Positions 139 to 15,533 of a DNA stretch of 30,936 bases are shown here, one piece after another. The stretch's first letter is position 1, and each line of letters starts with the position of its first letter. This stretch comes from a virus: the IMG/VR virus record IMGVR_UViG_3300048928_000081, positions 1 through 30,936 of that record; one strand, given 5' to 3'. The notes beneath the pieces were generated by a model, which worked only from the letters and a program-made list of their open reading frames with translations, was not told the DNA's origin and searched no databases. Both the position numbers and the translations under genes were made by a program.

Positions 139-195
139 CGTTCCGCTTTTTTCCGCGTCACGCTCCCAGCACGAAATGAAAAAGCGGAACGCGCT
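139..195. repeat. Left integrase arm-type site cluster (GCGGAAC motifs)
   Basis: The motif aaaaagcggaacg occurs at 179-191 and in inverted orientation at 139-151. A third, shorter copy (ttccgcg, inverted) lies at 151-157. The same GCGGAAC word occurs three times just inside the right att site (30091-30120). Paired arm sites on both sides of the core are expected for tyrosine-recombinase attP sites. The assignment rests only on motif repetition and position. Confidence 0.6.
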
Positions 196-1220
196 TAGGC
201 AGCGGGACGGAGCTTCCGAACGCCGCCATAGTGGCGCTCTGTCAGGCGCTTGTCGTGATGTTGCAGCAACTCTGCCGCCTCTTCAAGACTGCCTGATTTT
301 TGAGCGGCACGTTTGCGCGCGTCGCGCAGGTAGAGGGCGCGAATCTGCCGTACGAATTCGTCATCGTTGGCCAGCCCGGCCTTCACCGCGGCGCGCGCTC
401 TGGCCTTGTCCCACTGATATCCCAGCTTGCGAAGCTCAACCGGTTCGCCGGCAGGCGTGGAGAGCAACATCAGGTGGTCCGCGTTGCCCATAGCGCGGCG
501 TCGGCTCAGTAGCTCCGGCAACGTCGCCGACAAGCTCAAGTCCCACTCAGCCTCTTTGCCCGTCTTGCTGGCCTCCATGCGCAGAATGTCGCCCTTCGGC
601 AGGAGTACCGTCACGCAGTCCGTCAGCCGCATGCCGGTAGCCGCGCCAAGGTCCATGCAATCGCGCAGGGTCGGATTCCCTTCGTAGCGGATAGCCTCCC
701 ACACCTCATCCAGCACCTTCATCTTGCGCGGCTTCTCGGTGTTCTTCCACTTCGACCGCTCCATACCGGCCGCCGGCCAGGGTAGGGCGGTGTAGCCCTC
801 CAGGCGCGCCCAGTTCCAGATGATCGACAGCAGCGCCATCTCGCGGTTCGCTTGCGTCTTGGCCGACCGGTCGCGCAGGTAGCGCTTGAGCATCGGCAGA
901 TCCACGTCGCTCCAGGTGGACGCCTGCATGGCTGGGCGCATGGTCCGCAGGGACTTGGCGTAGCCTCGCTTCGTCTCAGCGCTGGTGTACGCCGGCAGCA
1001 CATTCTCTTCCCACGCGTCGAAAGCTTCTTCGAGCGTGCCGGCGATACGCGGCGCCCGGTTCACGATCTCGTCCCAGCGCTTCACCGCCTCCTCAAAGTC
1101 CGTGCCTAGTGGGATGTCCGGCTCACCCTCTGGGCGTCGGTCGAAGAAGTAATACACGACCACCTTGCCGCTCTTTCGCTTGCGGGAGTGGGAGCGTAGG
1201 CGCGGATACTGTCCGGTCAT
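195..1220 (-). CDS. int: Phage integrase, tyrosine recombinase
   Basis: This 341-residue protein catalyses site-specific integration and excision at the adjacent att site. An N-terminal arm-binding region rich in basic residues (RSHSRKRKSGK) is followed by a core-binding domain and a C-terminal catalytic domain. Visible catalytic positions are Arg198 in ATGMRLTDC, Lys219 in SKTGKEAE, Arg294 in a QIRALYLRDAR box where the usual His of HxxR is replaced by Arg, a His in LLQHHDKR, and the nucleophile Tyr331 in ERHYGG. The ATG at 1220 overlaps the excisionase stop as ATGA, which decides the start. The gene ends about 130 bases from the att core and reads towards it. The missing HxxR His is tolerated in several phage integrases. 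Confidence 0.95.
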   Translation of the reverse strand: MTGQYPRLRSHSRKRKSGKVVVYYFFDRRPEGEPDIPLGTDFEEAVKRWDEIVNRAPRIAGTLEEAFDAWEENVLPAYTSAETKRGYAKSLRTMRPAMQASTWSDVDLPMLKRYLRDRSAKTQANREMALLSIIWNWARLEGYTALPWPAAGMERSKWKNTEKPRKMKVLDEVWEAIRYEGNPTLRDCMDLGAATGMRLTDCVTVLLPKGDILRMEASKTGKEAEWDLSLSATLPELLSRRRAMGNADHLMLLSTPAGEPVELRKLGYQWDKARARAAVKAGLANDDEFVRQIRALYLRDARKRAAQKSGSLEEAAELLQHHDKRLTERHYGGVRKLRPAA

Positions 1221-1444
1221 TTCACCAGCGCGAAGTTGAAGCCCCGCGACGGCGCGACGGCCTTGCCGGCCAGCCACTCGCGAGTGTGGAAACGGCTCAC
1301 CAGTATGCGCTTCTCGCGACGACGGTGTGGGATGCCATCGCGTCGCAAGATGCGCTCTTGCTCGTCTGCATTGGTGGCGCCGGTTAGTTCTCGAACCTCT
1401 GCCGGCCGCAGGAATTCGTCATCGATGGATCGAGGTGCGGTCAT
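1217..1444 (-). CDS. Excisionase-like protein, DUF4224 type
   Basis: This small basic protein of 75 residues immediately precedes and overlaps the integrase gene. Residues 10-55 (FLRPAEVRELTGATN, then RRDGIPHRRREKRILVSR) match the pattern of DUF4224 proteins, which are winged-helix-like and regularly sit beside phage integrases. The likely role is directing excision or integration by bending DNA at att; this is inferred from position and size. A rho-independent terminator lies directly upstream at 1458-1480, so xis-int may be uncoupled from the early operon. Confidence 0.7.
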   Translation of the reverse strand: MTAPRSIDDEFLRPAEVRELTGATNADEQERILRRDGIPHRRREKRILVSRFHTREWLAGKAVAPSRGFNFALVK

Positions 1445-1796
1445 TCAATCCTCCATTAAAAAAGCCCGCACGGGGCGGGCTCGGGTTCATCTGGCCAGGG
1501 AGCGCGTTTGTTGCGCTGTCGCTTGAGGCGGCACATAGGTGTTCGGGGACCATCTTTGGCAGCTCGCCTGTCACCCATGCCCGCATTGGGTACGGAAGAA
1601 GGCACATCTGCCGAACATGCGCTTCTCCGCGGTCGGTGGCCCGATAGGCACCACGTTCTCCCGCTTTCTCGATCAAGTCCGCAACGACCAGCTGCCGAAC
1701 CGCATCGTCGTATGCCGGGGAGTTGTTGCCCAAGCCGTCGTAGGGTGTCGCAGTGCTGTAGAAGTGCAGCAGCATACTGATGCTCAGCGGGCTCAT
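1419..1796 (-). CDS. Small phage protein with winged-helix-like core
   Basis: This 125-residue protein of unknown function starts at an ATG that overlaps the upstream stop (ATGA at 1793-1796). The middle (YDDAVRQLVVADLIEKAGERGAYRATDRGEAHVRQM) has the look of a short winged helix: recognition helix, then a wing ending in a T-x-x-G-x-A motif common in phage 'LLHFYS...AY' proteins. The last 20 or so residues are encoded by the terminator hairpin and the overlap with the excisionase start, so the functional protein may end earlier or the C-terminus may be unimportant. It is the last gene of the leftward early operon. Confidence 0.65.
   Translation of the reverse strand: MSPLSISMLLHFYSTATPYDGLGNNSPAYDDAVRQLVVADLIEKAGERGAYRATDRGEAHVRQMCLLPYPMRAWVTGELPKMVPEHLCAASSDSATNALPGQMNPSPPRAGFFNGGLNDRTSIHR
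1458..1480 (-). terminator. Rho-independent terminator before xis-int
   Basis: On the minus strand the stem GCCCGC/GCGGGC (1475-1480 with 1464-1469) has a five-base loop and is followed by TTTTTT (1463-1458). It would stop leftward early transcription just upstream of the excisionase gene. It lies inside the reading frame of the 1419-1796 gene, near its 3' end. Confidence 0.7.
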
Positions 1797-2221
1797 TTTG
1801 GGTCCGATCTTTCGAGGGAGGGGGTAGAAATCGCCATGGAGCGGACGACCCCGAAGGACTCACTGAGCTTGCTGGCGACGTGCCGCATGCTGTGGGCCGA
1901 AACGCAGTCCAGGCTGAGCCCAGCGGCTTCCAGCGCTGCGCGGACGGCGGCCAGGTCCGGCTTCGGGAAAACATCCTCCGGGTAGGCGTTGGCCCAACTT
2001 ACCAGCTTGTGGTCGAACTCGGCGATTTCATCTCGCAGGCCGGCCAGCGCATCCCGCACCCGCTCATCTGCCACGGCCTGGGCGTAGTCCTTGATCGCCC
2101 CGTACATCTTGGCCTCGACCTCGGCACTACTCCCTTCCTGCCTTGCGTAGACGTGACCCCATTCGCACAGAAGCTCCGTCAGGTCGGGCAGTGGCGGCAT
2201 GCTGGGGGTCTGGTCAGGCAT
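1793..2221 (-). CDS. Hypothetical phage protein, acidic and helical
   Basis: A 142-residue protein with no recognised domain. After a proline-rich start (MPDQTPSMPPLPD) it is mostly helical and Ala/Glu-rich, with phrases such as YAQAVADERVRDALAGLRDEI that suggest a coiled coil. ATG 2221 is preferred over an upstream in-frame ATG because it gives the usual 8-base overlap with the upstream gene. It is translationally coupled to its downstream neighbour by ATGA. Confidence 0.6.
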   Translation of the reverse strand: MPDQTPSMPPLPDLTELLCEWGHVYARQEGSSAEVEAKMYGAIKDYAQAVADERVRDALAGLRDEIAEFDHKLVSWANAYPEDVFPKPDLAAVRAALEAAGLSLDCVSAHSMRHVASKLSESFGVVRSMAISTPSLERSDPK

Positions 2222-2387
2222 GGTCGCCCTGCTCTTTCTCGCGTGAGGGCTTTCGTCGCGCAATCTCGTCCCTGCAGGCTTTAGCGAAAGCCCTGTCGCT
2301 GGGGTCGTTGCTCATCGCGCAGGCCAGCAGCAGCCCGGCTAGGTCATCCGTGGGCACGTCGCTCAGGTCAGGTGTTTCGGTGCTCAT
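2214..2387 (-). CDS. Hypothetical small phage protein (57 aa)
   Basis: This short acidic-then-basic protein begins MSTETPDLSDVPTDDLAG. The first half resembles a helical DDLAGLLLACAMS segment; the end is highly charged (RRKPSREKEQGDH). The start is fixed by an ATGA overlap with the preceding 49-residue gene. No function can be assigned; the coupled small-gene layout supports that it is real. Confidence 0.55.
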   Translation of the reverse strand: MSTETPDLSDVPTDDLAGLLLACAMSNDPSDRAFAKACRDEIARRKPSREKEQGDHA

Positions 2388-2533
2388 GGCTCTTCTCCGG
2401 GGGTTTCGGTCGGCGCCGGCTTGCTCACGAAGTGCCACTGGCCGCAGCTGCAGAACTGGTAGCCGCTGGTGTCGCTCCAGCGGGCGTAGGTGCCCGGGCC
2501 GGCGGCCGGGATGTGCTCGACCTGGTCAGCCAT
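2384..2533 (-). CDS. Hypothetical mini-protein (49 aa), CxC
   Basis: This short minus-strand gene starts with ATG at 2533 (MADQVEHIPAAGPGTYARW) and ends in a TGA overlapping the next ATG. It overlaps the upstream gene by 8 bases. The segment GYQFCSCGQWHF holds a CxC pair and a His and may bind a metal or belong to a dimeric zinc site. The chain of overlapping start and stop codons on both sides is the main evidence. Confidence 0.55.
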   Translation of the reverse strand: MADQVEHIPAAGPGTYARWSDTSGYQFCSCGQWHFVSKPAPTETPGEEP

Positions 2534-3194
2534 TGGCGTCACCCTGCTCTGGGGGTAGAAACCGGCCGTCCAGGAGCCGCGCCGCCGCGGTCAGGTGCTC
2601 CGCCTCGGCGCGCATGGTTGTGATGTAGCCCGGGAGCTCCGCGCGCAGTTCGGGCTGCGCTTCGGCGGCCTTTTCCACGACCGCCACCATGTCCAACAAG
2701 ACTGTGGCGGACCGCCGCAGGGACTTGGCGGCCGGCGCGGCGCCTTCTGGCTTCCACCATCCGGCGTCCAGGCCCGCCTGCGCGCGCTCGGCGATGCTGC
2801 CGTAGGCCGTCATCTGTGCCTGGGGATCGAAATCCGGCGCAGCGTGGGCGGCAGCCATGCTGGGGGCGTCGGCATACAGCGGCGGCGCCCTGCCACCGTC
2901 CGGCATTGCGTAGAGCTCGCAGTCGAAGGTCGGCCCCTTGCGGCCGGACAGCAGGCGGAGCTCGCCATCGTCCCAGACCGCGAAGTTCAGCAGTTGCACT
3001 GGCTCGGCCGCTGGCGCAGATGCGAGTGCTGCGCGGACCCTGGCTTCGACTGCGCGGGCGATCTCCAGCAGGCCGGCCTCGTTGGCAATGGTCGTGGTCT
3101 CGCCGCCCAACTCGTGCGCTCTGGTGGTGTTGAGGCTGTCGCAAGCGTTGATGACGACACGCATCAGTTCGTCGTCGGTCAGGTCACGTTGCAT
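2526..3194 (-). CDS. Hypothetical phage protein (222 aa)
   Basis: A protein of unknown function preceded by a good ribosome binding site (CAGGAG, 7 bases before the ATG). It is helical at both ends, with a short compact middle (VQLLNFAVWDDGELRLLSG) that looks like beta strands. The C-terminal helix (LRRSATVLLDMVAVVEKAAEAQPELRAEL) could form a coiled coil. Early-operon context suggests an accessory role in takeover or DNA metabolism, but nothing specific can be said. Confidence 0.65.
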   Translation of the reverse strand: MQRDLTDDELMRVVINACDSLNTTRAHELGGETTTIANEAGLLEIARAVEARVRAALASAPAAEPVQLLNFAVWDDGELRLLSGRKGPTFDCELYAMPDGGRAPPLYADAPSMAAAHAAPDFDPQAQMTAYGSIAERAQAGLDAGWWKPEGAAPAAKSLRRSATVLLDMVAVVEKAAEAQPELRAELPGYITTMRAEAEHLTAAARLLDGRFLPPEQGDANG

Positions 3195-3447
3195 GGGAAT
3201 CTCCTGGGGTGGCGGGCGGCGGGCTGACGACCTCCAGCACGCGCTTCAGGTCGAAGGCGCGCAGCAGGATGTCGCGGTGCTCGCGCAGCCCTTCAAGCTC
3301 GCGATGCATGGTGTTGACCTTGTCGAAGGCGCAGACCGGGCACTGCAGCAGAGCTGGCTGGACGCCCAGAGCCTTCACGCGGCCCTCGTCAAAGGCGAAC
3401 TCCAGGTTGTGGATCGTGCAGCGGATGTGCATGCTGGTCTTGCTCAC
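3184..3447 (-). CDS. Small zinc-finger-like phage protein (87 aa)
   Basis: The N-terminal half contains a CTIH pair (residues 10-13) and a CPVC knuckle about 25 residues later, a spacing compatible with one zinc ribbon. A helical segment follows (MHRELEGLREHRDILLRAF), then a proline-rich tail. It overlaps the neighbouring genes by 4 and 11 bases. Similar short CxxC phage proteins are common in early operons; the function is unknown. Confidence 0.6.
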   Translation of the reverse strand: MSKTSMHIRCTIHNLEFAFDEGRVKALGVQPALLQCPVCAFDKVNTMHRELEGLREHRDILLRAFDLKRVLEVVSPPPATPGDSHAT

Positions 3448-3932
3448 GGCTTGTCCTTTGCTGTAGCTGCGGCGGCACCTGGGGCGGCCGGGTCCATCCA
3501 GTACGTGACGGCCTCAACATCGGCGAATGGGCTGGAGTGGCAGTCGAAGTAGCTGCCGTGCTCCCAGACGCGCCATTCGCCCGTGTGCACGCCGCTCACG
3601 TCGGTGACGGTCATCCCGCCGTCGGTGTCCTCGCCATGGCGCTCGGCGTACACCCAGAAGATGACGGCCTTGCCGGGTGGTGGCTTGCGCGCGTCGTCAA
3701 CGGAGATCCAGCCGTCCGACCCGCAGCCCTCGGGGGTGTGAGCGAGCGCAGCACGAGCGCTGCTGCGCGCTGCATCCAGTTCGTCCAGCGCCTCCTGCAT
3801 GCCTGGGATGGCAATGGCGGCGCTGTAGGCGGCGGCGTCAAGCAGGCTGGCGCGGCGGTCGCATGCGGCATCCAGTCGCTGCAGGGCGGCCCGCAGGTCC
3901 GGGACCGCGCCTTGTTCTGTTTGGTTGGTCAT
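3444..3932 (-). CDS. DUF551-like phage protein
   Basis: This 162-residue protein has a helical Ala-rich N-terminal half followed by the pattern of the DUF551 family: GWISVDDARKPPPGKAVIFW near residue 73, then GEWR and finally VEAVTYWMDP, where family members usually read W-M-P-L-P. DUF551 proteins are frequent in phage early and nin-type regions and have no established biochemical function. The gene overlaps the next one by 4 bases. A second in-frame start cannot be excluded because the ribosome binding site is weak. Confidence 0.65.
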   Translation of the reverse strand: MTNQTEQGAVPDLRAALQRLDAACDRRASLLDAAAYSAAIAIPGMQEALDELDAARSSARAALAHTPEGCGSDGWISVDDARKPPPGKAVIFWVYAERHGEDTDGGMTVTDVSGVHTGEWRVWEHGSYFDCHSSPFADVEAVTYWMDPAAPGAAAATAKDKP

Positions 3933-3943
3933 AGCGGTCAGCC

Positions 3944-4309
3944 CTATGCTTGCAGCGCAACCATACCCATGCCGGCCATCTTCTGCGCCAGGTCCTCGGG
4001 GCAGTCGTGCCCGAGCACCGTGCGCGGCGTCAAGAGCTTCCAGGCGCCCAGGGTGGCGCCCAGGCCGATCAGCGTCAGGGCTGCTGCCTGGTCGCCGATC
4101 CAGGCCCCGACCTCGATGTAGCTGTGCTCCTTCCCGTCGAACGGGTCGATGTCGGCGAACTCTCCCTTGTGCCCAGCCATGGCGGTCTTCAGTCCATCGA
4201 GGGATGCCTTGGGGCCCTTCTTGACGCCGAAGAAGATCACGTCGGCGTCGGCAAGGTCGGCCGCGCAGCGTTGCGCATGCTCTTTCAGGTAGTCGTTCAG
4301 AGTGGTCAT
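3944..4309 (-). CDS. Hypothetical phage protein (121 aa), glycine-rich middle
   Basis: An unknown protein that starts MTTLNDYLKEHAQRCAADL. A central hydrophobic stretch (IGDQAAALTLIGLGATLGAWKLLTP, residues about 71-95) could be a buried helix or a weak membrane segment. No enzyme motif is visible. It stands slightly apart from its neighbours (11 bases downstream, 33 upstream) in the distal part of the leftward operon fed from the promoter at about 4970. Confidence 0.6.
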   Translation of the reverse strand: MTTLNDYLKEHAQRCAADLADADVIFFGVKKGPKASLDGLKTAMAGHKGEFADIDPFDGKEHSYIEVGAWIGDQAAALTLIGLGATLGAWKLLTPRTVLGHDCPEDLAQKMAGMGMVALQA

Positions 4310-4342
4310 GGTATTTCTTTCAGGGTCGGCAGGGGGCGGGAA

Positions 4343-4549
4343 TCAGGCCTTCTTCGCGGCCGAGATCGAGGCGATCTCGGCGCGTGTCAGCCTGCGGACG
4401 GTGGCGGTCTCTCCGCCGAACTGGTTCTCGCGCACAGCCATCCGAAGATGCTGCGTGGTGGTGTCGGCGCCGTCGCCATCGCGGGTGATGCGCGGCACTT
4501 TCACCAGCATCCACTCGGTCGGCTTCTCGTTCTCGATTCGATTGATCAT
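4343..4549 (-). CDS. Hypothetical small basic phage protein (68 aa)
   Basis: This short protein is preceded by AAGGA five to six bases from its ATG. The second half (LRMAVRENQFGGETATVRRLTRAEIASISAAKKA) is basic and helical. No domain is recognised. It is the second gene downstream of the 4938-5007 control region. Confidence 0.55.
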   Translation of the reverse strand: MINRIENEKPTEWMLVKVPRITRDGDGADTTTQHLRMAVRENQFGGETATVRRLTRAEIASISAAKKA

Positions 4550-4583
4550 TTCGATCCTTCAGCGGGGGTGATTGAAAAGGCGG

Positions 4584-4913
4584 TCAAAGACCGCGCATCA
4601 CAGGGTTCGTACCGCAGACCGCGGCCAACGCCCGGGCCACGCCGGCCACATGCTCGTTGCGCTCGGCCTTGGCCAGGTATTCGAAAGTCGGATGGAAGTA
4701 CGCCTCGGGCTTGTGGCCATCCTTCTTCATGTGGCCGAGCGTCCCGGCCTTGACCGCTGCGTTCAGCGCCTTGCGAACGTCAGCTGGAACGCGCGACGTG
4801 CACAGCAGCACACGGCGGCACTTCACCTGCTCGACATGGGACTGCTCGATGGTCAGCTCGCCGCGCTGCACGCGATCCTTGATGCTTTCCCAGTCGTTTT
4901 GGCTCAGTTTCAT
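4584..4913 (-). CDS. First gene of the leftward distal early operon, unknown function
   Basis: This 109-residue protein starts MKLSQNDWESIKDRVQRGEL, with GGAG five to eight bases before the ATG. The helix ELTIEQSHVEQVKCRRVLLC and the helix PADVRKALNAAVKAGTLG hint at a DNA-binding fold, and the phrase HKPEAYFHPTFEYLAKA recurs in phage hypotheticals (recollection, not checked). It is the first product made from the leftward promoter that the operators at 4938-4996 would control, the position of an immediate-early regulator such as Cro or N. No Cro-like motif is obvious, so that role is only positional. Confidence 0.65.
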   Translation of the reverse strand: MKLSQNDWESIKDRVQRGELTIEQSHVEQVKCRRVLLCTSRVPADVRKALNAAVKAGTLGHMKKDGHKPEAYFHPTFEYLAKAERNEHVAGVARALAAVCGTNPVMRGL

Positions 4914-4937
4914 TTCGATCTCCGGTTCGGTTGCTGT

Positions 4938-5007
4938 GCATTCATTGTGATTGAATGAATGCGCCGCCGTCAAGCATTTGTTGTGATTATTTGAATCGCG
5001 GTAGACT
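4938..5007. promoter_or_regulatory. Divergent promoter and tandem operator region
   Basis: Two 23-bp direct repeats start at 4938 and 4974, exactly 36 bp apart. They share GCATT, then TTGTGATT, then TGAAT (18 of 23 bases). The first copy is also palindromic: GCATTCAT-N9-ATGAATGC at 4938-4962. A leftward promoter fits TTGACG (-35, complement of 4968-4973) with CACAAT (-10, complement of 4944-4949), 18-bp spacer. A rightward promoter fits TTGTTG (4978-4983) and TAGACT (5002-5007), 18-bp spacer. Repeat one covers the leftward -10; repeat two covers the rightward -35. This geometry is that of a repressor-controlled genetic switch. Confidence 0.6.
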
Positions 5008-5013
5008 CCACCC

Positions 5014-5193
5014 ATGGAACAACCAAAACGCAAGCGCGGCGGGCAGGAGAAGCCCGACGACCAGAAGCTGGTGCAGCGGTCCATCCGCCTGCTGCCGGCG
5101 CAGTGGGCGAAGTACGACGCGGCCGGCGGCCTGCCGTGGCTGCGCGACCTGATCGACCGCGCCCGGCCGAAGCCGAAGGACGGCGACACCTGA
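5014..5193 (+). CDS. Ribbon-helix-helix-like protein, candidate regulator (59 aa)
   Basis: This is the only rightward gene in the early region. After a basic N-terminal tail (MEQPKRKRGGQEK) the sequence follows a ribbon-helix-helix plan: strand VQRSIRLL, helix PAQWAKYDAAGG, then helix LPWLRDLIDRARPK. Arc/CopG-type proteins of this size bind tandem operators as dimers. There is no Shine-Dalgarno sequence; a TAGACT -10 box ends six bases before the ATG, so the mRNA may begin at or next to the AUG, as in lambda cI transcribed from pRM. Its stop codon abuts the stop of the convergent gene at 5194. The role as lysogeny repressor or autoregulator is inferred. Confidence 0.7.
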   Translation: MEQPKRKRGGQEKPDDQKLVQRSIRLLPAQWAKYDAAGGLPWLRDLIDRARPKPKDGDT

Positions 5194-5823
5194 TCAGCCA
5201 TTGCCGCCCGCCTCCGCTGGTGATTGAAACGGTGCCCGTGCAGACCGCGCGAGCGCCAGCAGCACCTCGCGGAACTCCGCGGGCGTCGCGGCTGCCTCGC
5301 GCCGGCCGAGCGTCGGCTTGTTGCGGGCCTTGCCGCGCTGGTCGTGAAACCCGACCTGGTGTGTGCCGGTTGGCCGCTCCCAGCGCAGCTCCATCGGCCT
5401 GGCGTGGCCGTTGAAGTAGAGCCAGGTGGCCTTGTTGGCCCGGTGCCCGTAGGCCGACTGCCAGACCTCGCACACCCAGCCGCCCGTGCGGCACTCCTGC
5501 CAGCCGGTGCCGCGTGGCGACGTGAGGCCATGGAAGGCAAAGGCGCGGCTCTTGGCCGGGTGCTCCAGCACGCCGCCGTAGGTGCGCACGGCGCGCAGCG
5601 CGGCCCGGAAGCAGCCCAGGTCGTTGCCTGGCCGGTTGTGCTCGCCGCCCCAGCGGGCGTAGTTGACCGACGCCATTGAGCCCCAGCGCTGGCACGGGGG
5701 GTGCGCGACGACGGGGTGCGGGCCTTCGTAGGCTCGAGCATCTCGAGCTTCGTCCCAGGGGTCAACGCCGGCCACGTCGTAGTAGGCGCCGTCCAACTGG
5801 ACGTACAACGCGGCGACCATCAT
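5194..5823 (-). CDS. Dcm-like phage protein, possible DNA methyltransferase remnant
   Basis: The 209-residue product has VVAHPPCQRWG at residues 38-48, resembling cytosine-5 methyltransferase motif IV (PPCQ, catalytic Cys44), and GGVLEHPAKSR at 83-93, where motif VI normally reads ENV. No clear SAM-binding FxGxG motif I or target-recognition domain is present, and the protein is about half the usual length. It may be a short phage-type DNA-modifying enzyme, a nucleotide-modifying relative or an inactive homologue. The ATG at 5823 overlaps the upstream stop (ATGA). The C-terminus runs up to, but does not overlap, the convergent 59-residue gene. Confidence 0.6.
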   Translation of the reverse strand: MMVAALYVQLDGAYYDVAGVDPWDEARDARAYEGPHPVVAHPPCQRWGSMASVNYARWGGEHNRPGNDLGCFRAALRAVRTYGGVLEHPAKSRAFAFHGLTSPRGTGWQECRTGGWVCEVWQSAYGHRANKATWLYFNGHARPMELRWERPTGTHQVGFHDQRGKARNKPTLGRREAAATPAEFREVLLALARSARAPFQSPAEAGGNG

Positions 5824-6059
5824 CGACCATCACCTCCCGAGGGTGGGACGGGCCGCGTGTCGATGGCGCCGCGGCACCAGGGGCAGAACTGCAGCGAGGC
5901 GAACTTCTTTCCGTGCACGATGGCCAGCTGCTGCCGAGTCTTGCCGGACTCGTGGTCACGGACGGTCTGCAGCGTGACTAGGCCGTGCCCTGCGATGGCG
6001 TGGGCCTGGTCGCAGAGGCTGAGCCGACTGCCGGCCAGCTTCTTGCACTTGTCGCTCAT
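5820..6059 (-). CDS. Hypothetical small Cys-containing phage protein (79 aa)
   Basis: An unknown protein coupled by ATGA overlaps on both sides. Cys5 and Cys16 near the N-terminus and a CPWC motif near residue 60 could together make one zinc site. The middle (VTLQTVRDHESGKTRQQLAIVHG) resembles a small beta hairpin. No function is known. Confidence 0.6.
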   Translation of the reverse strand: MSDKCKKLAGSRLSLCDQAHAIAGHGLVTLQTVRDHESGKTRQQLAIVHGKKFASLQFCPWCRGAIDTRPVPPSGGDGR

Positions 6060-6682
6060 GCCTTGCCTCCCTGTGCCTGGGCGGCGCGGGCTGCGTCGTC
6101 CTTCTCTGGATCGGCGAACAGCGGCATGTAGTACAGCTGCATCCAGCGCTCCATCTGCGCGTACTGCCGCGGGTGCACCACGTCCTTGATGTTCCGGAAT
6201 CCCTGGCGGTTCACATAGACGATGGGCTTAGCCTGCGTGGCGTTGGCGAGCGCGGCGCGCACCATGCCGAACGGCTCCGGTGCATCGGGCTTGCCCTCGA
6301 TGAAGTCCACGACGGCCTGCAGCGCAGCGATGGCGCTGGGCGCAGCCGCAGCAGCACCAGGGGCGAGGCCGACGGACGTCAGCATGGCCTCGACCCGGTC
6401 GAGGGCTGTGCAGAGCCCGGGGTCGCGCCCAGCGGTGCCTCCCGTGGTCCGGGCAGCGACGCAGAGCGCCCGGACACTTTGGATGAATGCATTCGACGCG
6501 ACCTGGACGGTGGGCACGGGCGCATCCGGGAACAGCTCAATCCAGCGCACCAACATGTGATGCAAGCCGCCCGTGCACGCGGCCTGGATCACATTGCGGA
6601 GTCGGTTGATCTCGACGGCGGCGTCCAGACCCGCATCTGGATTCCCACCATCTTCCTCAGCGGGTCTTGTCGTGTTGGTCAT
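6056..6682 (-). CDS. Hypothetical phage protein (208 aa)
   Basis: This protein starts at the ATG that overlaps the stop of the NinX-like gene. The N-terminal two thirds are helical and Ala-rich (EINRLRNVIQAACTGGLHH, SIRALCVAARTTG-like helices). The C-terminal third has KPIVYVNRQGFRNIKDVVHPRQYAQMERWMQLYYMPLF, which reads like a compact conserved phage motif. No catalytic signature is seen. The operon position between NinX-like and zinc-ribbon genes suggests an accessory early function. Confidence 0.6.
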   Translation of the reverse strand: MTNTTRPAEEDGGNPDAGLDAAVEINRLRNVIQAACTGGLHHMLVRWIELFPDAPVPTVQVASNAFIQSVRALCVAARTTGGTAGRDPGLCTALDRVEAMLTSVGLAPGAAAAAPSAIAALQAVVDFIEGKPDAPEPFGMVRAALANATQAKPIVYVNRQGFRNIKDVVHPRQYAQMERWMQLYYMPLFADPEKDDAARAAQAQGGKA

Positions 6683-7101
6683 GCTGCCTCCGTTGGGGTG
6701 GCGGTGCGCCCGCCTTTGAGAGCGACGATCAGTCGCATGGCGGCTACCAGCGCACTGGTCTCGTGGTAGCCCATGCCGCGCCGGCCATCTGTGCCGCGCA
6801 GCTTCCAGCTGGTCGCAAGCCAAGTGCCGCGCGGGCCCCAGCCGGCCTTCGGGCCGCCGTTGCGGTGCACGCTGGACTCGGGGCCAGACAGGTGGATCTG
6901 GAAAATCTCGATCAGCGGGCCGCCTTGCGCCCAATCGGTGGAAGGCGACCAGGGCGGCACGCTCGCGCCGCCGATGTAGCCGATGAATCGGCCGCCGATT
7001 CCAATGGCCCACGCCTCGCCCTCTCGGGCAATGGCGTCGTGCCCCAGCGCGCGGGCGACAGCCTCGTCCAGTGCATCGCCTTCAAGTTGGCAGAGCTCCA
7101 T
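6679..7101 (-). CDS. NinX-like protein (DUF2591)
   Basis: This 140-residue protein starts MELCQLEGDALDEAVARALG and has the family features seen in phage NinX/DUF2591 proteins: a short LxGxxLDxAVAxAxG opening, a W-x-P box (VPPWSPSTDW), a GGPLIE motif near residue 60, and a closing segment GYHETSALVAAMRLIVALKGG. GAGG stands about eight bases before the ATG at 7101, which is preferred to an upstream ATG. NinX genes occur in the early or nin region of many lambdoid phages; the biochemical function is not established. Confidence 0.75.
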   Translation of the reverse strand: MELCQLEGDALDEAVARALGHDAIAREGEAWAIGIGGRFIGYIGGASVPPWSPSTDWAQGGPLIEIFQIHLSGPESSVHRNGGPKAGWGPRGTWLATSWKLRGTDGRRGMGYHETSALVAAMRLIVALKGGRTATPTEAA

Positions 7102-7156
7102 ATTTCTATCCTCAATCGGTGCGGGTTGGACTTGCTGCGGCAAGGGTGGCGAGGTA

Positions 7157-7612
7157 TCACGCGGCCTCTGCCATGGAGTTGGTGTTGGCGGCCACTTTGG
7201 CCATGTGCGACCGAAGCGACACAGGGGCGAGGCCGGTCCATGGGTTGATGGCGATCACAGTTCCTCGGCGCTTGGCAGCCCTCGCGCGCTCCTTTGCGCG
7301 GTAGGCTTCAAGGTTCTTGGCCCGGTAACGTCGGACCGCCTCGCGGTTGAGCTCTCGCTCGCTACGCTTCGGCTTGATGGCGTCCTCTCCACCGGCAGCG
7401 GAGTAGCGGGCCAAGAGGCAGCGCCACTCCCCGGTTACCTGGGTCCACCCGACGATGCGGAACCGCTCGCCCGGATGATCCTTGCGACGCTTCCCGATGG
7501 CGCCGTTGATGGCATGCACGGTGGCGTCCAGTTCTTCGGCGATGTCTCGGGTGGTCATCGGTCCACGCTTGCGCAGCAGCGCCGTGATGGCCTCGACTCT
7601 TTCGATGCGCAT
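7157..7612 (-). CDS. Helix-turn-helix protein, early operon
   Basis: The N-terminal 45 residues form a typical winged helix-turn-helix: IERVEAITALLRKRGPMTTRDIAEELDATVHAINGAIGKRRK, then a wing containing FRIVGWTQ. The C-terminal part holds a strongly basic helical stretch (SERELNREAVRRYRAKNLEAYRAKERARAAKRR) often found beside nuclease or DNA-binding modules. The ATG at 7612 lies three bases after the stop of the Gp157-like gene, so the two are coupled. It is a plausible transcriptional regulator or replication accessory; neither can be separated from sequence alone. Confidence 0.7.
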   Translation of the reverse strand: MRIERVEAITALLRKRGPMTTRDIAEELDATVHAINGAIGKRRKDHPGERFRIVGWTQVTGEWRCLLARYSAAGGEDAIKPKRSERELNREAVRRYRAKNLEAYRAKERARAAKRRGTVIAINPWTGLAPVSLRSHMAKVAANTNSMAEAA

Positions 7613-7614
7613 GG

Positions 7615-8112
7615 TCAGCTGATCGCCAGTCGGTCGCTGCGCACGATGCGAGCGCCGGCAACCGCCTCGCCTGCCTTGATCGCGGCCTTGATCTTGGTCT
7701 TGCTGGGCGTCGGCGGCTTCGGGTCGTTGCACAGCGACGCCGGAAACTCGGCGCCGTCCTCGATCTGCACCGACTCGTCGCGGTCGATGTGAAGCTTTGC
7801 GCCGAACAGGCCGGTGTCGTGCTTCACCTCCAGGATGCCGGTGGCCTTCATGCAGTCGGCCATGTAGCGCTTGAATGCTTCCAGGCGCTTCACACGGGCT
7901 GCGTGCCGGCTCACCATCTGCTCGATGATGGAGGACGAGGCTTCCAGCAGCGCCGCCTCTTCCTTGGCATACGCCACGCAGGCAATGGCCTTGTTCTGGA
8001 ACAAATCGCGGCTCTGGGAGTAGGTCTCGACCAGCTCGCCGGTTTCTGGGTCAATCTGGTTCACGGAATCGCGCACCGACTGCGCGAGATCAAACAGCGT
8101 CACGTTGCTCAT
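7615..8112 (-). CDS. Gp157-like phage protein
   Basis: This 165-residue protein is placed in the Siphovirus Gp157 family from its architecture: a helical, coiled-coil-forming N-terminal part (DLFQNKAIACVAYAKEEAALLEASSSIIEQMVSRHAARVKRLEAFKRYMADCM), then GLFGAKLHIDRDESVQIED and a C-terminal PKPPTPSKTKIKAAIKAGE helix. Family members lie next to recombination genes, as here, and have been discussed as host-interference factors; no activity is proven. It overlaps the Erf gene by ATGA at 8109-8112. Confidence 0.75.
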   Translation of the reverse strand: MSNVTLFDLAQSVRDSVNQIDPETGELVETYSQSRDLFQNKAIACVAYAKEEAALLEASSSIIEQMVSRHAARVKRLEAFKRYMADCMKATGILEVKHDTGLFGAKLHIDRDESVQIEDGAEFPASLCNDPKPPTPSKTKIKAAIKAGEAVAGARIVRSDRLAIS

Positions 8113-8696
8113 GCGGGCTCCTTGGGCCATGCGGCCGTCAACTTGTCTTGGGTCTTGGCGTCCAGCTGCTGCCAGATCGCATCGCGGTCTGCGTCGTCCA
8201 GTCCGATGAGGTAGTCGCACACACCAACTGCATCGCCCTTGGCGACGCCGGCCGTCAGGCGCTTGGCAATGGCTGCGGGGCTGCTGTCCTGAGCGGGCGG
8301 GGCAGCGTCTTGCTTGCGTTTCGCGGCGGTTGCTTGGTTGCCGTCGTCATCCTCCGGCGCCATGCCGCAGGCCGCCATCAGCGAGTAGCGGCGGGCGTAG
8401 GTCAGCGCCGAGCCGTAGCCTTGCGGGTCTTGCTTTGCCGCAGGGACGGACAGCTTGCCGGCGCTGATCGTCTCGCCGGACTCGTGCACGAAAACCGTCT
8501 CGACGGTCACGCCGCGTTCGGACTCGTGGGACGACTGCATCAGGAAGATGCCATTGCTGTTCAGCGCATCGATCACCGCTTCGATGCATGCCGACAGATC
8601 GGCGTACTTGTTCTTGAAGTGCGGGTTCGTGTGGGTCTTGAGCGCGGGGCCAAACTGCTGCTGGGCCTTGACCATTGCGCTTGCGATGTTCTTCAT
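8109..8696 (-). CDS. erf: Erf-family single-strand annealing protein
   Basis: The 195-residue protein matches ERF recombinases (P22 Erf, 204 aa), which anneal complementary single strands during phage recombination and genome circularisation. The family core is clear: FKNKYADLSACIEAVIDALNSNGI at residues 27-50 and the hallmark PQGYGSALTYARRYSL near 91-106, followed by an acidic EDDDGN. The C-terminal third is the usual variable linker and tail. GAGGA sits about five bases before the ATG at 8696, which rules against the longer upstream start. No partner exonuclease or SSB is recognisable nearby. Confidence 0.9.
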   Translation of the reverse strand: MKNIASAMVKAQQQFGPALKTHTNPHFKNKYADLSACIEAVIDALNSNGIFLMQSSHESERGVTVETVFVHESGETISAGKLSVPAAKQDPQGYGSALTYARRYSLMAACGMAPEDDDGNQATAAKRKQDAAPPAQDSSPAAIAKRLTAGVAKGDAVGVCDYLIGLDDADRDAIWQQLDAKTQDKLTAAWPKEPA

Positions 8697-8703
8697 GGCG
8701 TCC

Positions 8704-8817
8704 TCAGAACGGCAGGCCCTTGAAGGCCATGCCGTAGGCAATGCGCGCGGCGTACCGGCGCGAGTGGTGGGCGGCGTACAGCCGATAGATGGCGATGAAG
8801 TGGCGCAGCTTGTTCAT
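8704..8817 (-). CDS. Mini-protein, basic (37 aa)
   Basis: A short gene between the 23-residue membrane peptide and erf. Its ATG (8817) overlaps the upstream TGA as ATGA, and its own stop lies inside the erf ribosome binding region. The sequence is rich in Arg, His and Tyr (MNKLRHFIAIYRLYAAHH, then SRRYAARIAYGM). It could be a coupling peptide or a small regulator of erf. It is supported only by the overlap pattern. Confidence 0.5.
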   Translation of the reverse strand: MNKLRHFIAIYRLYAAHHSRRYAARIAYGMAFKGLPF

Positions 8818-8885
8818 GCGAACACCTTCAAAGCAAAGCCGGTCAGGCCGGCCAGATAGGTAAGCCAGAAGAGGGCGGGGGACAT
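8814..8885 (-). CDS. Membrane mini-protein (23 aa)
   Basis: The ATG at 8885 follows the upstream TGA by one base and is preceded by AAGGAG seven bases away, a strong site for so short a gene. The product is almost entirely one hydrophobic helix (ALFWLTYLAGLTGFAL) with one Lys near the end. The stop overlaps the next start. Single-pass micro-proteins of this type may be regulators of membrane proteins or simply coupling devices. Confidence 0.5.
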   Translation of the reverse strand: MSPALFWLTYLAGLTGFALKVFA

Positions 8886-8886
8886 G

Positions 8887-9123
8887 TCAGGGCTCCTTGG
8901 GTTGATTGGCGTCCTGCCACTTCGCCTCAAGCCAGTCGTACAGGCGTTGCGCATCCTCGAACACCTCGTATGCGTCCTCTCGCGTGGCGTAGTGCGTGAA
9001 GTGGTCGTCGTGCAAGTGGTGGTAGTCGGCCCCAACCTGCATCGACGTGAATGCCTCGGTATCGCGGTCCCAGTGCGCCCGGAAGTAGCTCGGGTAAACG
9101 CTGCAGCATTTCACGGCACGCAC
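8887..9123 (-). CDS. First gene of the leftward proximal early block, unknown
   Basis: The protein (78 residues from GTG 9123; an in-frame ATG at 9186 would add 21) has a compact mixed sequence, VKCCSVYPSYFRAHW ... ADYHHLHDDHFTHYATREDAYEVFEDAQRLYDWLE. It is rich in His, Asp and aromatic residues. The HHLHDDHFTH cluster could bind metal. Neither start has a convincing Shine-Dalgarno sequence. Transcription would begin in the 9124-9220 gap shared with the rightward late operon. Confidence 0.6.
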   Translation of the reverse strand: MRAVKCCSVYPSYFRAHWDRDTEAFTSMQVGADYHHLHDDHFTHYATREDAYEVFEDAQRLYDWLEAKWQDANQPKEP

Positions 9124-9220
9124 TCTGTCGTCTCTAGGCGAGAGTGAGAACAGCAGCCCCAGCCATTCGGCAGTCTGATGGGGCATCCCGATAAGCCAAG
9201 GTAGCCCGGGGAGGATCGAA

Positions 9221-9661
9221 ATGGCACTTTTCCATATCAAGGTTCGGGCGCTGATGGAAGCGACCGTAAGCACCCCGGTTTTCGCCGAGAGCGCTGAAGA
9301 GGCAATGGCCTACCTGCGTGCAAACAGCGAGTGGCACTCTGATGTGGCTATTTCGGACGAGGTGGAGAAGGGCCTGCGAATTGAGCCCCTGGAGGTGATC
9401 CAAGTCGAATCACCGCAAGAGTGCGACCCTCTGGAGAAAGTCGAGGGGTGCTGGTACGACGAGGAAAGGTATGGCTACGGCTGGCAGTTGAGCCTGTCAG
9501 ATGCGTTCTTCTGGGATCGCATGCAGGCAGTGTTCTGGGCCTACAAGAACGGGGATGTTGACGACATCGAAGCTGAAGGGGCGATGTACAACGAATTCTG
9601 TGCCCTGCGCGAGGCTTCGGCGTCCGAGTTCGCCGCGCTGCAGGGTGAGCGCAATGGCTAA
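9221..9661 (+). CDS. Unknown protein opening the late operon (146 aa)
   Basis: This gene starts at an ATG preceded by a strong GGGGAGGA site. Its acidic product begins MALFHIKVRALMEATVSTPVFAE, with the look of a small alpha/beta domain, and contains SLSDAFFWDRMQAVFWAY. It overlaps the small terminase start by 8 bases, so it is translated together with terminase. No homology is recognised; a DNA-packaging accessory or control protein is possible from position only. Confidence 0.65.
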   Translation: MALFHIKVRALMEATVSTPVFAESAEEAMAYLRANSEWHSDVAISDEVEKGLRIEPLEVIQVESPQECDPLEKVEGCWYDEERYGYGWQLSLSDAFFWDRMQAVFWAYKNGDVDDIEAEGAMYNEFCALREASASEFAALQGERNG

Positions 9662-11227: not shown

Positions 11228-13471
11228 ATGGCCAAGATGGACGATGACACGCTGCTGTCTCACCTCCAGAAGGAGGAAGAGGCCGCCGCGGATTACGTGT
11301 GGGGTGCGCTTTCGGCCGAGCGGCTGAAGGCCATGCGCGAGTACCACCGCGAGCCCTACGGCAACGAGGAAGAGGGCTGGTCCACCATCGTCACCAGCGA
11401 GGTGCAGGACACCATCGAATGGCTGCTGCCTGACCTGCTGGACGTGTTCGTCAGCACGGACAAGGCCGTCGTCTTCGAGCCAACGCGCGCCCAGGACGTG
11501 GCAGGCGCAGAGCAGGCCACGGACGCCTGCAACTACGTCTTCTACAAGCAGAACAACGGCTTCCTCGTCCTGTACACGGCGCTCAAGGATGCGCTGATGG
11601 TCAAGAACTGCGCGGTGATGTGGCGCAAGGAAGAAAAGCGCACCAAGAGCGTGCTTCCGGTGCAGAACGCCACGCCCGAGATGCTGGCGATGGTCCTGGC
11701 CCAGCACGAAGAGGCCGAAATCGAGTCGGCGAGCGAGGTTCAGCAGCCCATCATGGACCAGATGACGGGCCAGCCTGCCGTCGATCCGCTCACTGGCCAG
11801 CCGATGGTGCAGACGCTGATCAACGCCCGCATCTCGTACATCGAGAAGCGCAAGACGATCAAGATCGAGGCCTTCCCGCCCGAAAACCTGCTGGTGCGCC
11901 GCGATTGGACGCAGCCTCTGCTGGACGATTGCCCCTATGTGGCCCGCGCGATGGAGGTTTCTCTGTCGGACCTGCACGAAATGGGGTTCGAAGACGTCAC
12001 GGCCGAAGACCTGACGAGCAGCGGCGAACCTGCGCCGACCGACGAGGACGCCTACCGCGCCGAACGGGCAGGCCGTAACGGCGACGCCTACATCGAATCT
12101 CGCCAGCGCAACGATGTCGAGGACGACAGCCTCAAAACCGGCATCCTGCGCATCGAATTCGTGCTGGTGGACTACGACGGCGACGGCATCGCTGAGCGCC
12201 GCTGCATCTACCGACTGCAGAACAAGGTGCTGAGCAACGACGAGTGCTCGCATGTGCAGATCGCCACGGCCTCGCCTGTGCTGCTCACGCACCGCTGGGA
12301 CGGTCTGAGCGTTGCGGACCTGATGAGCGACCTGCAGCGGCTGAACACCGAGCTGACGCGCCAGGTGCTGAACAGCGCGTACCTGTCGAACAACCCGCGC
12401 AAGACGGTCCTGACCGATGTCAACGGCACGCCGCGGGCCAACATCGATGACCTGCTCGACTCGCGCCCTGGCGGCATCCTTCGCCAGCAGCAGGTCGATG
12501 CCATCGGCCAGGACATCACGCCATTCGTCGGCGGCCAGATGCTCCCGCTGCTGGAGTACGTGGACCAGATGGGCGAGCGCCGCACGGGTTTGAGCCGGCA
12601 GAGCCAAGGGCTGGACCCCAACGCCATCAACGAGCGCACCGCAACGGCGGCACGCATGGCCCAGGGCGCAGGCCAGAAGCGCATCAAGCTCATGGCCCGG
12701 ATCTTCGCGGAGATCCTGCTCAAGCCCATGTTCCGCGGCACGTTCAAGCTGCTGACCGATGGCGACATGGAGCGGATCGCGTTCAAGTTGCGTGACCAGT
12801 TCGTGGAGTACGACCCCAACGAGTGGCGGGACAGCTACGACACGACGATCAACGTCGGCCTGGGCACTGGCGACAAGGAAGTGCAGGGCATGCAGCTGCA
12901 GCAGATCGCAGCGGCTCAAGGCGCATTGGCCGCGAGCCCGTTCGGCCCGTTGCTGCTCAAGCCCAAGCAGGTCTACAACACGCAGGCGAAGCTGGTGGAG
13001 AACGCCGGCTTCAAGAACGTGGGCGATTTCTTCATCGATCCGGGCGACCAACCTCTTCCGCCGCCCCCGCCGATGCCGCCCGATCCCAAGATCGCGGTCA
13101 AGCAGATGGAACTGCAGGCCGATGCGCAGAAGTTCCAGGCCGAGACGCAGCGCCTGAACGAGGTCGAGCAGCTGAAAGCACAGGCCAAGCTGCAAGAGGT
13201 CCGCGCCAACCTGGAGCTGCAGGCCGCGAACGATGCGCGCGATTCTGAGCGCGAGATGATGAAAGCGCAGTTCGAGGCGCAGCAGGCCATGCGCGACGAC
13301 GAAACGAAGCGGCTCATTGCGCAACTGGACGCCGAGATCACACGCTACAAGACCGACGCCGACAACGCCGTCAAGCTCCAGATCGCAGGCATGCAGCAGC
13401 AGACCGCAGTGCACGCCAACGAGACACGCGCCCAGCAGGCGCAGGAAAAGTCCGAGCCCCAAGGGGACTGA
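11228..13471 (+). CDS. Portal protein, P22-type
   Basis: The 747-residue protein (P22 gp1 is 725) forms the dodecameric DNA entry ring. The N-terminal part contains the wing and clip region with EEGWSTIVTSEVQDTIEWLLPDL, typical of this family, and ARTGLSRQ-like text (RRTGLSRQSQGLDPNAINERT) at about residues 455-475, as in many podovirus portals. Residues from about 600 on are one long charged helix region (QAETQRLNEVEQLKAQAKLQ), corresponding to the C-terminal barrel of P22-like portals. The gene lies 13 bases after terL. A weak ribosome binding site leaves ATG 11237 as an alternative start. Confidence 0.9.
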   Translation: MAKMDDDTLLSHLQKEEEAAADYVWGALSAERLKAMREYHREPYGNEEEGWSTIVTSEVQDTIEWLLPDLLDVFVSTDKAVVFEPTRAQDVAGAEQATDACNYVFYKQNNGFLVLYTALKDALMVKNCAVMWRKEEKRTKSVLPVQNATPEMLAMVLAQHEEAEIESASEVQQPIMDQMTGQPAVDPLTGQPMVQTLINARISYIEKRKTIKIEAFPPENLLVRRDWTQPLLDDCPYVARAMEVSLSDLHEMGFEDVTAEDLTSSGEPAPTDEDAYRAERAGRNGDAYIESRQRNDVEDDSLKTGILRIEFVLVDYDGDGIAERRCIYRLQNKVLSNDECSHVQIATASPVLLTHRWDGLSVADLMSDLQRLNTELTRQVLNSAYLSNNPRKTVLTDVNGTPRANIDDLLDSRPGGILRQQQVDAIGQDITPFVGGQMLPLLEYVDQMGERRTGLSRQSQGLDPNAINERTATAARMAQGAGQKRIKLMARIFAEILLKPMFRGTFKLLTDGDMERIAFKLRDQFVEYDPNEWRDSYDTTINVGLGTGDKEVQGMQLQQIAAAQGALAASPFGPLLLKPKQVYNTQAKLVENAGFKNVGDFFIDPGDQPLPPPPPMPPDPKIAVKQMELQADAQKFQAETQRLNEVEQLKAQAKLQEVRANLELQAANDARDSEREMMKAQFEAQQAMRDDETKRLIAQLDAEITRYKTDADNAVKLQIAGMQQQTAVHANETRAQQAQEKSEPQGD

Positions 13472-13514
13472 ACCATTTCAAAGGCTCCGCAGTGATGCGG
13501 CCCGGAGGTAATCC

Positions 13515-15533
13515 ATGAGCGAATCCATCGCAGGCGGCCAGACCGTCGATCTTCCCGTTCGTGCTGGCGACAGCCTGAAGATCGGGTATCTCGGCGGCAC
13601 TTACTCGGCCGTGGCCATCGCCGGCTTGTCTGGCCTGCCTTCGGCTCTGGCGACCAACGCCAACACGAGCCAGACGCTCGGCCCATGGGCGCGCAACATC
13701 GTCGTACGGCTGTCCACCTCGGCAAATGGCCGCGTGGAATACGCGGTGGGCAACCCACCCGTGTTCGCACCGGCCGGCACGCGGTTCGTGCGCACCAGCG
13801 ACGGTGTGCCGCTGGAGCTGAAGGGCCTGGGCGCGAACGCCGAATACCTCGCGGCCGGCTCCAGCCCGACCGCGCCGGCAGCCCTGGCTGCATCGGGCTC
13901 GTACAGCACGTCGCTGACCGAAGGCACGCGCTACGAGTCCGCCGCGCCCACCGTAACCGGTGGCGTGGCGCCGTATGCATTTGGCTCGGCGGGTGGTCGC
14001 CTGCCGCCTGGAATTCGTATCAATCCTCAATCGGGCGTGATGCATGGCGTGCCGAGTTTCCAGGGCTCCTATGCGGGTGTGGTGGTGCGTGCGATAGACC
14101 AATTGGGCGCTTTCATCGATATGGCAGTCGGAACGGTCGCGGTGGCTGCCCCGAGCACCGCTCCCGTTGTGGGCAACCGATTGGCGGTGGCTGGCGATTC
14201 CATCACGCAGCGCAGCTGGGATACGGCGGTCGGAAGCGCAACCCTAGCCATGGCGGGTGGTGTGTGCACCGTCACCCTGTCGGCGGACCGCACTGCCTTG
14301 ATGCTGCCGGGCCAGAAGATCCGGTTGTCCCTGGCCACAAACCCCACCAGCCTCTACAACGGCGAATGGGCCATCACCGCCAAAACCGGGGTTCGCACGC
14401 TGACCTTCGATTTCCCATTCGCTGAAGCGGCCCCCAGTGGGAACTGGAACTGCTCGTTTGCCAATGCGGTCGCCACCGAGGGTTTCGTCAACCACATCAT
14501 GGGTACGACCGGCCAGCGCATGGCGCTGACCAAAAACATCGGCTGCGATGGCGCCACTGCCCAGCAGATCCTGGCCATCATGCAAGCACGCCTTGCGCCC
14601 GGCGACTGTGACGTGCTGTGTGTCATGGCTGGCACGAACGACATCAACCAGTCGATCCCCACCGCCACCACGATTCCATTCCTGCAGCAGATCATGGACT
14701 ACGCCGTGACCATCGCTCCCTTGGTGGTGATGATCTGCCCCCCGCCGACCGGAACTGCGAACGGTGGGCCGGCCGCTCTCGGCAACGCAATCAAGAGCTA
14801 CGCGTCGGCCAACTACCCGACCAAGATTTCGGTCATTGATGCATACGAGCTGGTCCGGGAACCTGGTCAAACTCTGGCGAAGACCGGCTATCTGATCGAC
14901 AACCTGCATCCGTCTGGAAACGCGGCCTGGGTCATTGGTAGCGCAGCCGGCGCGGCCATCCTCGCAGCGCGCCCGGATCTGCCGGCGCGGCCGACGCCGG
15001 CGACGAGTTTCGTCACGAACGGCAACCTCACGGCGGTGACCGGTTCCGTGGCTGACGGCGTGACGGCATTCCCGGCTTCGTCCACGATGACGCCGAGCAT
15101 CGTCGCGAACCCCTACGGCCCTGGAAACCTGCAGCGCTACGACGTGACGGCCACGGCTGCAGGCCGCTCGCGCGCCGAATTCCCTGTGGCTTTCGGCAGC
15201 TTGGTCACTGGCAAGAAGTACCAGGCCAAGGCCCGCGTGATCCTGAACGCCACCTCGGCAACGTTGACTGACCTGGACTTGCAGATCACTGTGACAGCTG
15301 GCGGGCAGAGCTACTTCCTGCAGGCCATCAGCACGCAGACGAACACGAACGCGGGTGGCATGGGCGGCACGAAGCGTGCCTATGCAGAACTGCCGAATCT
15401 GGTGGTGATCACCGAGCCGTTCGTTGCGCCTGCCAGCATCACACTGGTGGGCTTCCGGTTCTTCCTTGGCTTCGGTGGCGCTGGAACTGGAGCGTACAGC
15501 TTCGGCGAGATCGACTTTTTCGAGGTTGTCTAG
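13515..15533 (+). CDS. SGNH-hydrolase tailspike-like protein
   Basis: This 672-residue protein starts after GGAGGTAATCC. Residues 1-115 are beta-rich. A putative Ig-like (He_PIG) domain at about 130-212 includes GGVAPYAFGSAGGRLPPGI. An SGNH/GDSL hydrolase follows: GDSIT (Ser229), GCDGAT, GTNDIN (Asn375) and DNLHPSG (Asp462, His465), the complete catalytic set. Between block I and the next helix, residues about 235-315 form an inserted beta-rich stretch. The C-terminal 180 residues look like a jelly-roll. Such enzymes remove acyl groups from polysaccharides, so a role in attacking acetylated surface sugars is likely. Its place between portal and scaffold is unusual for a tailspike. Confidence 0.8.
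   Translation: MSESIAGGQTVDLPVRAGDSLKIGYLGGTYSAVAIAGLSGLPSALATNANTSQTLGPWARNIVVRLSTSANGRVEYAVGNPPVFAPAGTRFVRTSDGVPLELKGLGANAEYLAAGSSPTAPAALAASGSYSTSLTEGTRYESAAPTVTGGVAPYAFGSAGGRLPPGIRINPQSGVMHGVPSFQGSYAGVVVRAIDQLGAFIDMAVGTVAVAAPSTAPVVGNRLAVAGDSITQRSWDTAVGSATLAMAGGVCTVTLSADRTALMLPGQKIRLSLATNPTSLYNGEWAITAKTGVRTLTFDFPFAEAAPSGNWNCSFANAVATEGFVNHIMGTTGQRMALTKNIGCDGATAQQILAIMQARLAPGDCDVLCVMAGTNDINQSIPTATTIPFLQQIMDYAVTIAPLVVMICPPPTGTANGGPAALGNAIKSYASANYPTKISVIDAYELVREPGQTLAKTGYLIDNLHPSGNAAWVIGSAAGAAILAARPDLPARPTPATSFVTNGNLTAVTGSVADGVTAFPASSTMTPSIVANPYGPGNLQRYDVTATAAGRSRAEFPVAFGSLVTGKKYQAKARVILNATSATLTDLDLQITVTAGGQSYFLQAISTQTNTNAGGMGGTKRAYAELPNLVVITEPFVAPASITLVGFRFFLGFGGAGTGAYSFGEIDFFEVV

Follow-up and report, generated by a model that had tools for sequence, protein, structure and literature searches.

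Genome setting and features of the locus

The window, by which we mean the whole stretch of DNA analysed (IMG/VR record IMGVR_UViG_3300048928_000081), is a linear virus contig of 30,936 nt (30.9 kb). From about 9042 down to 195, in the left arm, the genes run leftward and encode an ERF-type annealing protein, a Gp157/Gam-like protein, NinX, small unassigned proteins, an excisionase-like protein (1217-1444) and an integrase; late genes run rightward from 9221. The one rightward gene of the left arm encodes a protein of 59 residues, and its left-hand neighbour is divergent and its right-hand neighbour convergent (Table 1). The NinX-like protein lies at 6679-7101 and a weak Ren-like/winged-helix protein at 7157-7612, in an arm that otherwise consists mostly of small unassigned genes. 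The window genes that were scanned included none recognisable as a replication or immunity gene, so the record may be incomplete.

Table 1. Coordinates of the features discussed, in the window unless a related record is named
Feature	Position	Strand	Basis
Left-arm leftward gene block (ERF, Gp157/Gam-like, NinX, xis-like, int), holding the 59-aa gene in reverse	195..9042	-	gene calls, profile matches
First gene behind the leftward promoter, 109 aa	4584..4913	-	gene call
Operator 1 (candidate), 25-bp palindrome, core TTGTGATT at 4945-4952	4938..4962	.	repeat and shuffle tests
Leftward promoter, TTGACG-18-CACAAT, -10 inside operator 1	4944..4973	-	promoter scan
Operator 2 (candidate), second repeat, core TTGTGATT at 4981-4988	4974..4996	.	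repeat and shuffle tests
Rightward promoter, TTGTTG-18-TAGACT, -35 inside operator 2	4978..5007	+	box match
Regulator gene, 59 aa, probable RHH, leaderless-type start	5014..5193	+	translation, family comparison, predicted structure
Convergent neighbour, 209 aa, phrog_12600	5194..5823	-	PHROG match
Integron integrase, G008 (in L044)	12577-13515	+	TIGR02249
Integron integrase, G015 (in L055)	38655-39584	-	TIGR02249

Candidate operators and promoters in the window

Two 23-bp repeats (4938-4960 and 4974-4996) lie 36 bp apart upstream of the 59-residue gene. They are identical at 18 of 23 positions, a value never reached in 300 dinucleotide shuffles of the 100 bp, whose maximum was 16/23. The first repeat forms part of a slightly longer palindrome whose two 9-bp arms match perfectly, and arms matching at 9/9 positions occurred in 0/300 shuffles. 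We regard the two repeats as candidate operators; their common core is found in the whole window only at these two places.

The promoter overlapping operator 1, which is read from 4973 to 4944 on the minus strand, is the only sigma-70-like promoter detected in 4500-7500. The rightward boxes (4978-4983 and 5002-5007) score 8/12 and are thus weak; the -10 box ends 6 nt before the ATG at 5014, and there is no Shine-Dalgarno sequence there. A preliminary description of this DNA had proposed all of these elements, namely the 59-residue open reading frame, the spaced repeats with a palindromic first copy, the two promoters with a -10 and a -35 box inside the repeats, and a -10 box six bases before a start codon that lacks a Shine-Dalgarno sequence. 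Our coordinates and translation agree with it on each, and the repeats lie beyond the shuffle maxima.

Two more copies of the 9-mer gtgattgaa are present, at 4568 and 5220, as had also been reported. Further operators at these copies were rejected because the TTG arm is missing, one copy lying in the tail of a terminator-like hairpin and the other inside the end of the convergent gene. The early/late divergence at 9042-9221 was likewise considered, and no operators are present there.

The 59-residue protein

AlphaFold predicts helices at residues 28-37 and 40-50, with an extended conserved strand segment, LVQRSxRL, before them (pLDDT 78-86 in this part); the two models are both single-chain and middling (pLDDT 70.5 and 66.5). 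The modelled order of strand, helix and helix is plausibly that expected for a ribbon-helix-helix (RHH) protein. Structure prediction, which had been suggested as a check, yields the helices behind the strand, and Foldseek and VIA-align searches with the models gave no fold match. The window protein and the main family have no match in Pfam, PHROG, NCBIfam or PDB families either; the sole match to a known RHH sequence family is a weak BrnA-antitoxin match of one distant relative. Thus, of the earlier RHH assignment, the part that is supported, by comparison of about 35 relatives, is a small DNA-binding protein, while the RHH class comes without a fold or family match. DNA binding, repression and the RHH fold are what we infer for this protein.

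Arc and Mnt of phage P22 are very small phage RHH repressors that act on promoter operators. The window protein resembles them as a very small phage protein with operators at promoters, its repressor role and RHH fold being predicted, and its strand residues Q21, S23 and R25 might be placed like Q9, N11 and R13 of Arc. It differs from Arc and Mnt in having no Pfam, PHROG or profile match to them, and in that its gene is a single-gene mobile unit outside an immunity region, with a conserved leaderless-type start.

A family of short regulators

About 35 relatives were collected, with 43-71% identity in the main alignment, and 24 relatives of the window protein (P0001) are located in viral contigs; genes on these related contigs were called with our own simple gene caller. 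Two relatives belong to named genomes, Paraburkholderia ultramafica and Burkholderia sp. OK233, and matches occur in 8 of 398 genomes of the family of the OK233 strain. Further copies are carried by plasmids of Burkholderia contaminans and B. aenigmatica. In the genomes sampled, the family is almost absent outside Burkholderiaceae. Among INPHARED phages, tblastn found no matches with P0001 or the family consensus, and two chance matches only with a longer relative.

The invariant residues are G9, LVQRS, R25, L26, W31, K33, D35 and the WLR at 42-44. At the N-terminus, most relatives carry GRPPKP, which is similar to an AT hook (L033 gives a weak Pfam match), and the corresponding position in the window protein reads KRGGQEKP. 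Together these proteins make up an undescribed family of regulators of about 55-60 residues. Annotation tends to overlook the family, since its genes are small and have no Shine-Dalgarno sequence; four plasmid records of B. contaminans and one of B. aenigmatica show no annotated gene where the match lies. A 41-residue frame in L016 (495-620, minus strand; MIPVPVRLTPGQRDKLQRIGVQRLRDWLDRTA...) resembles the regulator core and is possibly a second small RHH-like gene in that array.

Leaderless-type start

A -10-like hexamer lies 6-8 nt before the ATG in 31 of 32 family upstream regions, compared with 3 of 249 control genes on the same contigs. With at least 5/6 of TATAAT demanded, 27 family members and no control gene remain. 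None of the 32 regions has a Shine-Dalgarno sequence. L022 and L023 are exceptions without the leaderless geometry, and for L002, L005 and L024 we picked the start from several in-frame ATGs lying close together. The leaderless-looking start noted earlier in the window is kept across nearly the whole family. From this geometry we infer that the transcript has its 5' end at the ATG and is translated leaderless.

Twin sites across the relatives

Nearly every member has two copies of one short element upstream of the gene, 34-36 bp apart; in L007 and L009 the spacing is 46 bp, about one helical turn more. We read the element as TTG-N5-CAA, whose centre is asymmetric and occurs in either orientation (TGATT or AATCA). 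The de-duplicated twin-site sum is 283, compared with a shuffle maximum of 240. A test restricted to direct repeats misses the loci in which one site is flipped (L004, L010, L011 and L017), which were judged by eye, and L025 has no clear twin sites.

The two sites of a locus resemble each other (11.9/15) more than sites of different lineages do (8.5/15; permutation p<5e-5, using one representative per lineage and sites picked by eye). In a few lineages with other operator centres, the residues of the predicted recognition strand differ as well: where the window protein has LVQRSIRL, L031 has LELRSIRL with GTGCTACACAAAA occurring twice, L034 has LVSSSLRL with TTTTGCACCCC twice, and L035 has LVAKTLRY with TATTTGTACACG twice. 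Searching related prophages for co-conserved operators, another check suggested in the preliminary description, has thus revealed twin sites in nearly all relatives, varying together.

Eight related records, about 309 kb in all, contain 19 operator matches, of which 16 belong to the twin pair itself. Because operators are found essentially only at the regulator's own gene, the protein most likely acts locally. In many relatives operator 2 lies between the -35 and -10 boxes, instead of on the -35 box as in the window. A leftward promoter resembling TTG(A/C)-17/18-CACAAT is recognisable in about half of the relatives and is weaker elsewhere. G005, G006, G008 and G015 share a conserved leftward 5' leader beside operator 1 (CCGGTTGGTGTGTCGATGGG as read on the regulator strand); it occurs once per record, and the genes it precedes are mostly unrelated.

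Integron and transposase contexts

In 11 relatives (alignment A2), an attC-like site starts with the gene's stop codon. With a covariance model built from such sites, at least two were found in 12 of 25 records and one in a thirteenth. The same model found no attC in the window (best E 0.48 with filters off), and we rejected an integron cassette as the status of the window copy. The orientation of the attC sites, which we take from a comparison with aadA-type attC sites, agrees with that of the regulator gene. Two records encode integron integrases (429 and 411 bits; curated cut-off 265); both also carry phage structural or packaging genes and a separate phage integrase, and attC arrays adjoin.

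Arrays of attC-like sites, mostly with one site per about 300-800 bp, are seen in the left arms of phage contigs, including L006 (5159-5219), L007 (1648-5766), L013 (301-3867), L014 (2003-6308) and L009 (3794-6033). Many leftward phage genes end in the GTTAGGC core of a site and so run against the attC orientation, whereas the RHH-like gene has the same orientation as attC. Integrons and attC clusters carried by phages are already known (Qi et al. 2023, PMC9892861); the main text of that paper makes no mention of regulator, ribbon or DNA-binding. The present family resembles such cassettes and CALINs in the attC-like site at the stop codon of 11 relatives and in the two records with an integrase, and differs in the lack of an attC at the window copy.

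The stop codon of the regulator adjoins an ISL3-transposase-like frame in L018, L015, L019 and L026, and the downstream 140-residue frame of L018 matches Zn_ribbon_ISL3 (E 2e-9). Because this frame abuts the stop codon, the leaderless promoter may drive a pair of regulator and transposase fragment in these four loci.

Proposed role and alternatives

Sequence comparison shows that the gene is conserved and that the twin sites co-vary, and it establishes the spacing of -10 box and ATG, the confinement of sites to the locus and the variety of contexts. We consider it probable that the gene encodes a self-contained, autoregulated local repressor, portable between contexts, that controls itself and the leftward promoter. 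The probable RHH protein would bind the two operator copies between the divergent promoters. Binding at operator 2, on its own promoter, would limit its own synthesis, and binding at operator 1, on the leftward -10 box, would also hold the leftward promoter down. Repression of both promoters is the most economical reading because of these two positions; since the rightward boxes of the window are weak, operator 2 may instead serve activation. The leftward promoter would restart transcription of the distal part of the left-arm operon (small unassigned genes, then xis and int). The regulator mRNA would start at the AUG or no more than one or two nucleotides from it. The unit would have been inserted in reverse orientation into left-arm operons, plasmids and integron arrays that are otherwise unrelated.

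The preliminary description had instead seen in the protein the lysogeny regulator. On this reading, its binding would keep the early operons of a lysogen shut, in the manner of lambda CI. The window contains no HTH_3 or S24 domain, the regulator would be transcribed against the left-arm operon, and its start is of the lambda cI type. The cI mRNA is cited as leaderless (PMC9031893), and cI transcribed from pRM is, like the gene predicted here, a repressor gene between divergent promoters with multiple operators; the CI protein, however, is much larger and unlike the window protein, and the 59-residue regulator is not the master repressor where the context is known. Operators are essentially confined to the gene itself, instead of marking the early-operon promoters; the records of several related phages also encode, at a distance of kilobases, CI/Cro-type or S24 repressors; and homologues reside on non-phage Burkholderia plasmids. 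The statement that no other CI, Cro or Arc candidate is recognisable in the prophage holds for HTH_3 and S24 domains in the window and proves little, given a possibly incomplete record. The evidence does not support the lysogeny claim, and we consider a master switch unlikely. About as improbable is that the protein activates its own weak promoter, in the manner of lambda pRM, with operator 1 activating and operator 2 limiting: the -35 box is weak in the window and in many relatives, and the helical phase between the sites is conserved (35 or 46 bp), but operator 2 often occupies the repressing position between -35 and -10, and operator 1 covers the leftward -10.

Omega, the RHH ParB protein of plasmid pSM19035, is the closest known system in mechanism. 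Like omega, the protein could be a small partition (centromere-binding) protein, with the twin sites as a minimal centromere. The core heptad AATCACA (or TGTGATT) fits the omega heptad WATCACW, which is usable in either orientation (PMC9499535). Both systems have a small DNA binder (RHH being predicted here) with promoter-overlapping sites, the family occurs on plasmids, and a ParA-like gene follows the regulator in L024 and lies upstream of it in L004. However, omega, to which the 59-residue protein has no detectable sequence homology, works with a ParA partner on 7-10 contiguous heptads, and its full ParA activation needs at least four contiguous repeats (PMC9499535), whereas the present family has a pair of sites separated by about 35 bp, and most of its members lack a ParA nearby, as does the left arm of the window; a partition role is thus quite improbable. 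Least likely of all is an orphan antitoxin-type regulator whose toxin would be the neighbouring gene. Many antitoxins are small autoregulated RHH proteins, and the BrnA match of the distant relative points the same way; still, the neighbours are unrelated from locus to locus, for which reason a conserved partner or toxin-antitoxin pair was rejected, and the regulator is monocistronic in most contexts.

Implications

Beyond the local repressor, a broader reading is possible, which we hold only tentatively and judge somewhat less than even: a cassette that moves from phage to plasmid and back, in part by integron (attC) recombination, with operator and recognition strand changing together, so that the lineages are insulated orthogonal repressors. 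If so, the leaderless start would let the travelling cassette work without any host leader, and each lineage could rewire whatever operon receives it.

The gene, its paired operator and its leaderless-type promoter stay together in unrelated contexts, and a regulator within a prophage xis/int operon need not be a lysogeny switch. Lineages with different operators and strands offer a natural set for tests of protein-DNA specificity, and the family as a whole offers one for compact, host-independent switches.
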